DNA of 64,000 nucleotides from Qipengyuania sp. YIM B01966 (GTDB taxonomy: Bacteria; Pseudomonadota; Alphaproteobacteria; Sphingomonadales; Sphingomonadaceae), in the NCBI RefSeq assembly GCF_016461955.1, contig NZ_JADMNM010000001.1:305598-369597 (forward strand), given 5' to 3'. Below, in pieces: positions 56,004 through 59,120 of the stretch. Position 1 is the stretch's first letter, and the number at the start of each line of letters is the position of its first letter. The notes under the pieces are model-generated. The model was not told where the DNA came from. It ran no database searches and worked only from the letters and a program-made list of their open reading frames with translations. The position numbers and the translations under genes were made by a program.

Positions 56004-56450
56004 ATGAAACAGGTCGAATTGTTCACCGACGGTGCCTGCAAGGGCAATCCCGGCCCCGGCGGGTGGGGCGCGCTGCTGCGGATGGGGCGCCACGAGAAGG
56101 AACTGTCGGGCGGCGAGCGCGATACGACCAATAACCGGATGGAAATGACCGCCGCCATTCGCGGGCTCGCCGCGCTGATCGAGCCGTGCGAGGTTGCGCT
56201 GCACACCGACAGCAAATATCTGATCGACGGGATCACACGCTGGGTGCACGGCTGGCAGAAGAATGGCTGGGTCAATGCCAGCAAGAAGCCGGTCCGCAAT
56301 GCCGATCTGTGGCACGAACTGATCGAACAGACCGGGCGTCACCGGGTCCACTGGCACTGGGTCAAGGGCCATGCCGGGCACCCCGAGAACGAACGCGTCG
56401 ACACGCTCGCCAGTGCGGCGGCCGAAGCGCAGGCGGCACTACGCGGCTAG
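56004..56450 (+). CDS. rnhA: Ribonuclease HI
   Basis: RNase HI removes RNA from RNA-DNA hybrids. The 148-residue product has [20 protein letters not shown] (Asp9), [12 protein letters not shown] (Glu), [11 protein letters not shown] (Asp) and the late [14 protein letters not shown] (His and Asp), the full catalytic set, with the basic handle [22 protein letters not shown] 56004 gives the standard N-terminus. Its 3' end overlaps the convergent oxidoreductase gene by 12 bases. Confidence 0.96.
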
Positions 56451-57542
56451 CCGGTCGGGGGCGTAAAGCGCCGGATCGAGCCGGTCGGTCAGAGAGTCGC
56501 GGGGAGCACCGGCGAGAAGTTGCGCGGTCAGCCGGGCGGCCGCCGGCGCGGTCTGGATGCCGAAGCCGCCCTGCCCGGCAAACCACACGAACGCCCCGTC
56601 GCGCGGGTCGCGGCCGTAGACGGGCAGCCGGTCGGGGGCAAAGCTGCGAAGTCCTGCCCAGCGATGCTCGATTGCCGCGACCGGCCAGTCGGCCACCTCG
56701 CCGAAACGATGGAGGGCGAGCGCCACGTCCAGTTCCTCCGCCGCCGCATCGCAGGGTGCGGACGGGGTTTCGTCATGCGGCGAGAGCCACAGCCGCGCGC
56801 CATCGGGGCGGAAATAGAAACTGCCATCCATTCCGATGACCAGCGGCAGATCGGGCGGCGGCGGCGGATCGACGCGCAATTGCACCATCGTGCGCCGCAG
56901 CGGGGTGATGCCAAGCTGCCCGATACCGGCAAGGCGCGCGACCTCGTCGGCCCAGGCCCCGGCCGCGTTGACCAGCGTGCCGCACTCCGCGGCCACCCCG
57001 CGCCCGGCGAGCCGCCAGCCCGCGGCGGTGCGCGTAACCTCATCAATTCGCGCATTCGGATGCAACGTAACGCCGCTCGCCCGCGCGCGCGCGAGGTAGT
57101 GCGCGTGCAGCGTGGCGACGTCGATATCGGCGCAGGCCGGCTGCCACACCCCTTCATCCCACCCCTCGCGCAGTCCGGGCACCCGCGCGGCGAGCTGCGC
57201 CCGGTTCAACGGGTGCAGCGCTACCCCGCTGCCGGCGTAGGCGGCGAGGAAATTCGCCACGGCCGCATCCTCCCCCGGCGGTGCGAGGTAGAGCGCGCCG
57301 CGCGGCGCGAGGACGCCGCACTCGGCGAGATACGGGCCGGACGCCTGCGTCAGCGGGACAATCTGCGGTCCGCCATAGCACTCGTCCCAGAACGCGGCCG
57401 AGCGGCCGGTGGCATGATAGCCGGGCTGCGGCTCCGCCTCGAACACGGCGATCCGCTCCTGCGGAAGCAACGCGGCAAGTTCGGCGGCGAGGCTGGCCCC
57501 GGCGATTCCGGCGCCGATGATCGCGATGTCGGCTGTCAGCAT
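56439..57542 (-). CDS. FAD-dependent oxidoreductase (DAO family)
   Basis: The 367-residue product has the dinucleotide-binding [35 protein letters not shown], a central [17 protein letters not shown] and the C-terminal [19 protein letters not shown] and [19 protein letters not shown] motif, placing it in the glycine/D-amino-acid oxidase family. The substrate is unknown; related proteins act on D-amino acids, sarcosine or glycerol phosphate. ATG 57542 overlaps the hydrolase stop by one base. Coupled to the alpha/beta hydrolase upstream. Confidence 0.88.
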
Positions 57543-58549
57543 CACCCTTGCGCCGGGGCCACCCGATCGAGGAACCCGGCGATCGCGCCCATCGCCCGGT
57601 CACGTACCGGATCGATCTCGCGCAGGATTTCGTGGCGCGCCTCGGGTCCGAAGGCGACCAGTTCGCCGTTGGGCAGGCGGCGCGCGGCCCGCTGGATCGC
57701 GGCCCAGTTGACCAGCCGGTCAGCGCTGGTGCCGAACAGCAAGACCGGGGTCGTCACCTGTTCCAGCACGCCCGGCTGTTCCAGTGCGCGCATCGAGGCA
57801 TAGGCGCGCTCGACCCAGCCCCAGCTGCCGGGCCCCATCACCAGCCCGGGCCGCACCTGCCGCCACCACAACTCATCTTCGTAACGGGCAGCATCATGGG
57901 TCAGCAGGTTGGCGCGGTCAGCCGGCATTTCGCCCGGCTTTTCGCTCCATTTCCAAGCCGGACGGGTCGCCGGGCCGAGCGCGGCCATCACCCTTGCCGC
58001 CAGATGGGCCAAGGGCAGCGGCAGGTTGGGGGCGGAGAAACCGAGCATCGGCGCCGACAGCACAGCGGCATCGGGATCGACCCTCCGCTCGGCCAGCGCC
58101 CGCAGCGCCAGATGCCCGCCCATTGAATGGCCGATCAGGACATAGGGGCCTGGACCGACGCTGCGCCATGTTTCCCAGAACCCGGCGAGATCGTCGATCC
58201 ACTGGGCAAAGTCACGGACATGCCCGGTGACCTTGTCCGCCCCAAGCCGGCCAGACCCCGCCTGCCCGCGCCAGTCGATCGAGGTTACGCGCCAACCCGC
58301 ATCGTGCCATTCGGCGAAGCTTTCGAGATATTTCTCGTAATGATCCCCGCGCCCGGGAAGGAACAGCAGCGAGCCGCGCGGCGGGGCCGCGTTGCGCGAT
58401 GCGGCGGTGGGTGCGGCAAAGTCGATCCGGCGGATCTGGTGTCCATCGGTCGCTGTCCACCAGTCTTCCTGTGCGAAGGCCGGGATCGACCGGCGGTCGA
58501 CCCCCGAACGGCTGCGATGCGCGTCGCGATCGGGCTGATGATAACTAAT
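57542..58549 (-). CDS. Alpha/beta hydrolase (lysophospholipase-like) with apparent ATT start
   Basis: The open frame reads continuously from 58549 to 57542 and encodes a 335-residue lysophospholipase-like hydrolase: RGSLLFLPGRGDHYEKYLESF, SIDWRGQAGSG, the nucleophile motif GHSMGG (Ser142), LLFGTSADRLVN (Asp) and EARHEI (His). The first ATG in frame is inside GHSMGG (58123) and would destroy the enzyme. Upstream there is no ATG, GTG or TTG in frame. An ATT at 58549 sits exactly five bases after a perfect AGGAGG (555-560). From memory, relatives start a similar distance before DRRSIP. The natural substrate is unknown. It is divergent from cpaA. Confidence 0.85.
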   Translation of the reverse strand: MSYHQPDRDAHRSRSGVDRRSIPAFAQEDWWTATDGHQIRRIDFAAPTAASRNAAPPRGSLLFLPGRGDHYEKYLESFAEWHDAGWRVTSIDWRGQAGSGRLGADKVTGHVRDFAQWIDDLAGFWETWRSVGPGPYVLIGHSMGGHLALRALAERRVDPDAAVLSAPMLGFSAPNLPLPLAHLAARVMAALGPATRPAWKWSEKPGEMPADRANLLTHDAARYEDELWWRQVRPGLVMGPGSWGWVERAYASMRALEQPGVLEQVTTPVLLFGTSADRLVNWAAIQRAARRLPNGELVAFGPEARHEILREIDPVRDRAMGAIAGFLDRVAPAQG

Positions 58550-58625
58550 ACCGCCCTCCTGCGGTTGGTTACTATTTGGTAAGCCATAGCCTTTAGCACC
58601 GACCCCGCAAAGTTGGGGGGCGGTT

Positions 58626-59120
58626 ATGACTGGCGCGATGGTCCAATATGGTCTGCTGATTGCCTTGGCAATCGCGCTGGTGGTGGCAGCATTTACCGAT
58701 CTGCGCCGCCGTCAGATCGACAATTGGCTTAATGCGGGAATCGCGCTTGCCGCGCCGGCGTTCTGGTGGGCCAGCGGCTTGTCGCTGTGGCCCGATGTGG
58801 CGCTGCAACTGGGGGTTGCGCTGGCCGCCTTTGCGGTCCTTGCCGGCCTGTTCGCGCTGCGCGCGATGGGTGGCGGCGATGTGAAGCTGCTGACCGCGCT
58901 GGCGCTGTGGATCGAGCCGGGCTGGTTCCTCAAGCTGCTGGTGGTCATGGCGCTGGTTGGCGGCGTGCTGACGATCGTGATGGGCGCGTGGCACGTTGCA
59001 CGCCGCCAGCGCGACCGGCTGCAAATCCCTTATGGCGTAGCCATCGCCGCAGCCGGCATCTGGGTGCTGGGGGCGCAATATCTGCCCGCCGCCAGCCTCG
59101 CCGCCGCGCAGGCGGGGTGA
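58626..59120 (+). CDS. cpaA: Prepilin peptidase CpaA (Tad pilus)
   Basis: CpaA/TadV processes the Flp-type prepilin. The 164-residue integral membrane aspartyl protease has five to six helices, one catalytic Asp in FTDLRRRQIDNWLN and the second in the signature AMGGGDVKLLTALALW. It is short, as in the A24A archaeal/CpaA type, with no methylase domain. It begins the plus-strand cpa operon, but no flp/pilA pilin gene lies upstream in the window. Confidence 0.92.
   Translation: MTGAMVQYGLLIALAIALVVAAFTDLRRRQIDNWLNAGIALAAPAFWWASGLSLWPDVALQLGVALAAFAVLAGLFALRAMGGGDVKLLTALALWIEPGWFLKLLVVMALVGGVLTIVMGAWHVARRQRDRLQIPYGVAIAAAGIWVLGAQYLPAASLAAAQAG

Follow-up and report, generated by a model that had tools for sequence, protein, structure and literature searches.

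Conserved non-canonical start codons placed behind strong Shine-Dalgarno sequences (SDs) are a known small class that includes infC, sigR, cvfC1, and ccpN. The infC gene starts at AUU in Escherichia coli and at ATC in Streptomyces (PMC5472188), and at AUA in Staphylococcus aureus (PMC13009471). In Streptomyces sigR, a conserved SD, AGGAGGTG, precedes GTC in 32 of 34 species and GTT in two, and the product drops when IF3 is raised (PMC5472188). The S. aureus genes cvfC1 (AUU) and ccpN and infC (both AUA) likewise have conserved starts and extended SDs; in poor medium, the output of reporters with non-canonical starts was about 10% of that seen with AUG, and for cvfC1 the medium made no difference (PMC13009471). 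Start prediction commonly assumes ATG, GTG, or TTG, and few non-canonical starts have been characterised (PMC5472188).

Here we describe an alphaproteobacterial locus, an alpha/beta hydrolase gene at the head of an enzyme operon, which on comparative grounds would join this class. An AUU start is also found in E. coli pcnB, a different gene, where it is said to limit expression. Like infC, the hydrolase has an AUH start that lies behind an SD and is conserved; infC is discriminated by IF3, and the same would be expected of the hydrolase. Unlike the hydrolase, infC encodes the discriminating factor itself, which gives a closed feedback loop, whereas control of the hydrolase would be open-loop. 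With sigR the locus has in common an extensive conserved SD, a near-cognate start, and a partly coupled downstream gene (PMC5472188), but the sigR codon is GTC rather than AUU or AUC, the comparison there concerns one genus and a sigma factor, and the IF3 effect is experimental. An AUH start, a strong extended SD, and conservation across species are shared with cvfC1 and ccpN, the former also heading an operon; these two differ in being Firmicutes genes for a small protein and a regulator, and in having ribosome profiling and reporters behind them (PMC13009471). A literature search covering few subscription papers gave nothing, among the titles listed, on the hydrolase start in this group.

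The hydrolase gene and its surroundings

The window, by which we mean the whole stretch of 64,000 nt analysed from Qipengyuania sp. YIM B01966, contains the features listed in Table 1. The hydrolase passed the Pfam model for Hydrolase_4 (serine aminopeptidase S33) with 129.4 bits against a cut-off of 27, and contains GHSMGG, GTSADRL, and ARHEI, which we take to be the catalytic triad motifs of the family. It is a relative only of PldB (lysophospholipase L2, NCBIfam PRK10749), against which it scored 120.5 bits, under the equivalog cut-off of 362, and the solved chains nearest to it in sequence were monoacylglycerol lipases (best E, 8.6e-7). A preliminary description of this DNA had reported that the frame stays open without ATG, GTG, or TTG ahead of the nucleophile elbow and that a perfect AGGAGG stands five bases before an ATT. 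Both observations were confirmed: from the upstream stop to GHSMGG (58132-58115) there was no in-frame canonical codon, the first ATG (58123) lay within that motif, and the frame closed with TGA at 57544-57542.

Table 1. Positions of the hydrolase start, the genes around it, and the conserved box in the window
Feature	Position	Strand	Remarks
ATT start codon (candidate)	58549-58547	minus	in-frame ATT/ATC behind SD in 93/103 loci with SD match of at least 5
Shine-Dalgarno AGGAGG	58560-58555	minus	spacer GCGGT (5 nt) to ATT; full AGGAGG in 54/190 box-bearing loci
Alpha/beta hydrolase gene (Hydrolase_4)	57542..58549	minus	335 codons from ATT; Pfam PF12146
FAD-dependent oxidoreductase (DAO family)	56439..57542	minus	TGATG overlap with hydrolase stop
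17-bp box TTACCAAATAGTAACCA	58566..58582	minus	up to 3 mismatches in 190/198 loci
Type IV leader peptidase (cpaA-like)	58626..59120	plus	divergent; Pfam PF01478, 52.5 bits, cut-off 26.5

The oxidoreductase matched Pfam PF01266 (166.2 bits; cut-off 27.9), and no NCBIfam family exceeded its own cut-off in a search with this protein. It was located on the same strand and downstream of the hydrolase in 79 of 80 loci from named genomes, with an estimated gap of -6 to +26 nt (79 loci). The proposed coupling of the two genes held as close linkage, with a TGATG overlap in the window; an exact overlap, as ATGA or TGATG, was present in only 21 of 80 loci. On the other side, the leader peptidase gene, which had no match in NCBIfam, was divergent and upstream of the hydrolase in all 80 loci, and is followed by cpaB (TIGR03177; 219.7 bits against a cut-off of 71) and then by a secretin gene. 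Ahead of the hydrolase, the 17-bp box (TTACCAAAWAGTAACCA) was nearly invariant in relatives, and with up to two mismatches allowed it matched the genome once. It is perhaps a promoter or regulator site for one or both of the divergent genes, and bears what we take to be a faint resemblance to a CtrA site.

From the window alone, a chance origin of AGGAGGN5ATT would have been possible, with 0.26 occurrences expected per window and at least one found in 21 of 100 shuffles; conservation among orthologues, described below, ruled it out. The significance of the ATT thus comes from the arrangement that orthologues conserve, not from the single motif. A scan of the whole genome, which covered the full AGGAGG at a spacing of 5-6 followed by ATT, with frames judged by reading, returned 17 sites, compared to two for the reversed control pattern and 36 for ATG in the place of ATT. 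By that reading of the frames, the hydrolase was the sole plausible gene start among the 17 without a nearby canonical codon. Four sites besides the hydrolase opened frames of more than 100 codons from the ATT. Sites L280, L284, and L285 were rejected as further ATT-start genes, having canonical codons in frame upstream and soon after, as was L286, which has a frame of 326 codons with none canonical upstream, but by eye looks like noncoding antisense.

Codons behind the Shine-Dalgarno sequence in relatives

Orthologous loci came from two genome sets, the first contributing 80 loci kept from 212 relatives and the second, in which 353 of 397 genomes matched, contributing its best 30 loci and 100 regions. 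Starting from 237 loci, 229 had an N-terminal match, and removal of 31 identical ones left 198 distinct upstream sequences; eight without the box at up to three mismatches were excluded when SDs were counted, so that those counts concern 190 loci. The best match to AGGAGG between the box and the conserved core was located blind to the codon behind it, and a single in-frame codon at a spacing of 4-6 was then read, with the core anchored just after DRR. The loci share ancestry, so that tests on them overstate independence and a formal probability for the SD test is not meaningful.

An SD match of at least five bases was present in 103 of the 190 loci, and the codon behind it was ATT in 74, ATC in 19, and GTT in four, with TTG, CCG, ATA, and CAG found once each and AUG nearly excluded (2/103). 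Behind a full AGGAGG (54 loci), ATT was found 44 times, ATC six times, GTT three times, and ATA once, and ATG, GTG, or TTG never. Among the 49 loci with a match of exactly four, ATT was still the most frequent codon (17; ATC, two). By comparison, ATT or ATC made up 142 of the 3998 other in-frame codons of the same stretch, with 0-4 occurrences per 103 at the neighbouring in-frame codons and 0-1 at out-of-frame positions. The distance from SD to codon was 5 or 6 in 111 of the 112 ATT/ATC loci. These 112 loci, out of 198, were assigned by rule, and the number rises to 136 with the 24 weak-SD loci that were placed by eye in the ATT/ATC/ATA class (a further 11 were so placed in the GTT/CTG class). 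The strong-SD ATT/ATC loci spanned 23 genus codes and 12 named genera, between which there may be overlap. Within Qipengyuania, several loci (L036, L038, L041, and L081) had ATC with the same SD and other loci of the group had ATT. One of the named genera, Pimelobacter, is an actinobacterial name; this metagenome record (L079) holds a Sphingomonadales-type locus and is probably mislabelled.

The alignment of orthologues therefore bore out the proposal that the ATT is a start, a strong SD being followed at the matching position by ATT or ATC. It also disposed of a sequencing error or frameshift, which had been named as a condition that could refute the start, since the same arrangement recurred in 112 distinct sequences. 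The position of the start, the identity of its codon, the SD, the frame, and the conservation of all these are apparent from sequence comparison.

Strong SDs were seldom seen in neighbouring genes, which had been intended as a control on the SD rule. From at most 80 cpaA, 75 cpaB, and 79 DAO loci, a match of at least five was found in two, zero, and four, respectively, none with ATG; the codons behind were TTC and TGG (cpaA) and GAC, GTG, CGA, and GGC (DAO). With so few cases, infC is the only check that the SD reading recovers real starts here. Of 30 infC loci from the order, 27 were resolved, and 26 had a near-cognate codon behind GGAG or better (ATA in 22, ATC in three, and ATT/ATC in one). 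L114 has no SD-backed start, and L115 has an additional ATG with a 4-base SD. In the genome of the window itself, infC (L140, G000:C39:28906-29397) has AAGGAG, eight bases, and then ATA. AUH starts are thus probably usable in this organism, and the hydrolase would be at least the second gene in the genome to have one. Taking these lines together, we put the probability that the AUU of the hydrolase is used as its start at about 90%.

Coding behaviour of the segment and competing starts

The segment between the ATT/ATC and the conserved core was 11 to 35 codons long and had no in-frame stop in any of the 112 loci, whereas reading the two remaining frames gave stops in 40 and 52 loci. Its openness, including in loci that have another candidate, counts against the idea that a canonical codon further downstream is the real start in many relatives and that the ATT/ATC serves as an in-frame spacer after the SD. 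An ATG, GTG, or TTG did occur between the ATT/ATC and ten codons past the anchor in 67 of 112 loci, often at codon 4 or 9 (ATTAGCCACGTG, or RTGAAC at codon 9). Many species may thus have an additional or substitute start that yields a slightly shorter protein. Moreover, a canonical codon within 12 codons downstream was more common with a weak SD (32/42) than with a strong one (39/94; Fisher 2e-4, the weak-SD loci being partly assigned by eye), which fits lineages that lose the SD moving to an ordinary start. However, the window has no such codon before the nucleophile elbow, 45 of the 112 loci have no alternative, and the SD is 4-6 nt from the ATT/ATC and so at least 13 nt from codon 4 and anything later. 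We consider this spacer reading unlikely.

Codon choice and spacing bear on the opposite proposal, that translation begins further upstream, for example at an ATG beside the box, and that the ATT/ATC is an internal Ile. In 85 genes, hand-assigned loci included, the Ile codon at the start position was ATT in 62, ATC in 22, and ATA in one, compared to 700 ATC, 223 ATT, and 87 ATA internally in the same genes (Fisher 1e-19), so the position does not behave as an ordinary Ile codon. The distance from box to ATT/ATC was 33 nt in 84 of 112 loci, while the remaining 28 had 29-32, 34, 35, 43, 45, or 46 nt; being free to vary in this way, the upstream stretch does not keep frame. Among the 85 full-length loci, 51 did have a canonical codon upstream in the open frame, lying within 15 codons in 12 of them (ATG in nine), but 34, including the window, had none from the upstream stop to the near-cognate codon. 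An upstream start is thus very improbable in our estimation. Only six of the 85 were devoid of canonical codons over the whole interval from the upstream stop through query residue 38.

The exact 33-nt spacing in so many loci means that some constraint may lie in the DNA. Taken further, ATTAGCCA could owe its conservation to a role as DNA in the divergent pilus promoter rather than to use as a start codon, a proposal with which it would agree that AGCCA is conserved as nucleotides and that Gln and His exchange freely at codon 3. Yet in the 28 loci where the distance to the box differs, the SD, the ATT/ATC, and the frame stay together, and ATT/ATC hardly ever occurs behind the SD in another frame; of the competing accounts, we find this one the hardest to credit.

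Two further lines were set aside. A small residue at codon 2, which could have pointed to MetAP, was present in 91 of 112 loci, but codons 4 and 7 reached 72 and 83, and this weak argument was not used. An RNA hairpin over the start was rejected, as RNAalifold on the 84 loci of equal spacing gave -0.01 kcal/mol and no pairs over the SD or start. The start windows were less stable than a coding window (-6.2 versus -12.1 kcal/mol).

The near-cognate start was absent from 51 of the 198 loci, many of which look ATG-started, and in a minority of relatives translation seems to begin at an ordinary codon. In L094, L263, L264, L267, and L268, the box adjoins the core directly, the SD and segment are absent, and an ATG in frame is found beside the box, 11 codons ahead of the anchor. 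The protein tree (112 rows) was a quick reconstruction with a midpoint root, long-branch warnings, and many weakly supported forks. It placed 104 rows in one clade, with 85 ATT/ATC/ATA, five GTT/CTG, and 14 other sequences, and the eight rows outside it were all without the near-cognate start. Changes of start state numbered 14, compared to a mean of 25.2 when states were shuffled, and the simple reading would be a single gain followed by repeated losses. The near-cognate start (AUU, with AUC in several lineages, rarely AUA, and perhaps GUU) would then have arisen once, at the root of a large clade that joins Erythrobacter-like and Novosphingobium-like lineages or close to that root, and mostly have been kept since.

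Candidate consequences of a two-base start

If the AUU is used as we propose, translation of the hydrolase would be directed to it by the full AGGAGG, with the strong SD setting the initiator tRNA on a codon that offers it only two base pairs. Such pairing would make initiation weak and opposed by IF3, as for infC and sigR. Given the anatomy shared with infC, sigR, and cvfC1, we infer that the hydrolase, and perhaps the oxidoreductase as well, would be expressed at a low and IF3-sensitive level. The earlier suggestion that IF3 would discriminate against both enzymes is a reasonable one in view of published work (PMC5472188; PMC13009471). The likely purpose would be a low level of the hydrolase and of the FAD oxidoreductase closely linked to it, perhaps one tied to free IF3.

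A variant of this same explanation is that the AUU is real but acts as a fixed throttle, as proposed for pcnB, with IF3 never varying enough to matter. Opinion on it is evenly balanced, as a fixed throttle that does not sense IF3 fits as well as IF3 control does. In its favour are the S. aureus reporters, with a yield of about 10% of that of AUG and, for cvfC1, no medium effect (PMC13009471).

A broader and more speculative proposal, which we hold to be possible and rather improbable, is that the clade keeps the two-base start (AU followed by U or C) so that the hydrolase and oxidoreductase report on free IF3 or on initiation capacity, with AG after the start codon perhaps aiding the pairing. 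Under IF3 readout, the hydrolase locus would be the open-loop partner of the infC circuit. The AG in question is conserved, with A at the first position of the following codon in 96 and G at the second in 82 of 112 loci. It may provide further pairing, with U33 and C32 of the initiator tRNA, that makes up for the absent third pair, or AGC may be conserved simply as Ser. For AUG and GUG starts, a direct interaction of A at +4 is largely excluded by earlier work (PMC9841429).

Returning to use of the AUU as such, the near-cognate start spans more than 20 genera, and is on an enzyme rather than on a translation factor or regulator. The case suggests that the N-termini of such genes may be mis-annotated. 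The natural variants (AUU, AUC, AUA, and GUU, as well as the ATG lineages) could be used for testing the purpose of the weak start.

Finally, GTT was noted at the start position in some Pelagerythrobacter loci and in a few from elsewhere. It replaces ATT in L019, L155, L163, L188, L046, L087, L178, L221, L230, and L250, most of which have GTG or ATG within nine codons; in L046 and L087 the script placed the start at an earlier GTT, and the ATH test was unaffected by this. GUU acting as a start would be remarkable, and may be compared with the GTT reported for sigR in two Streptomyces species (PMC5472188).
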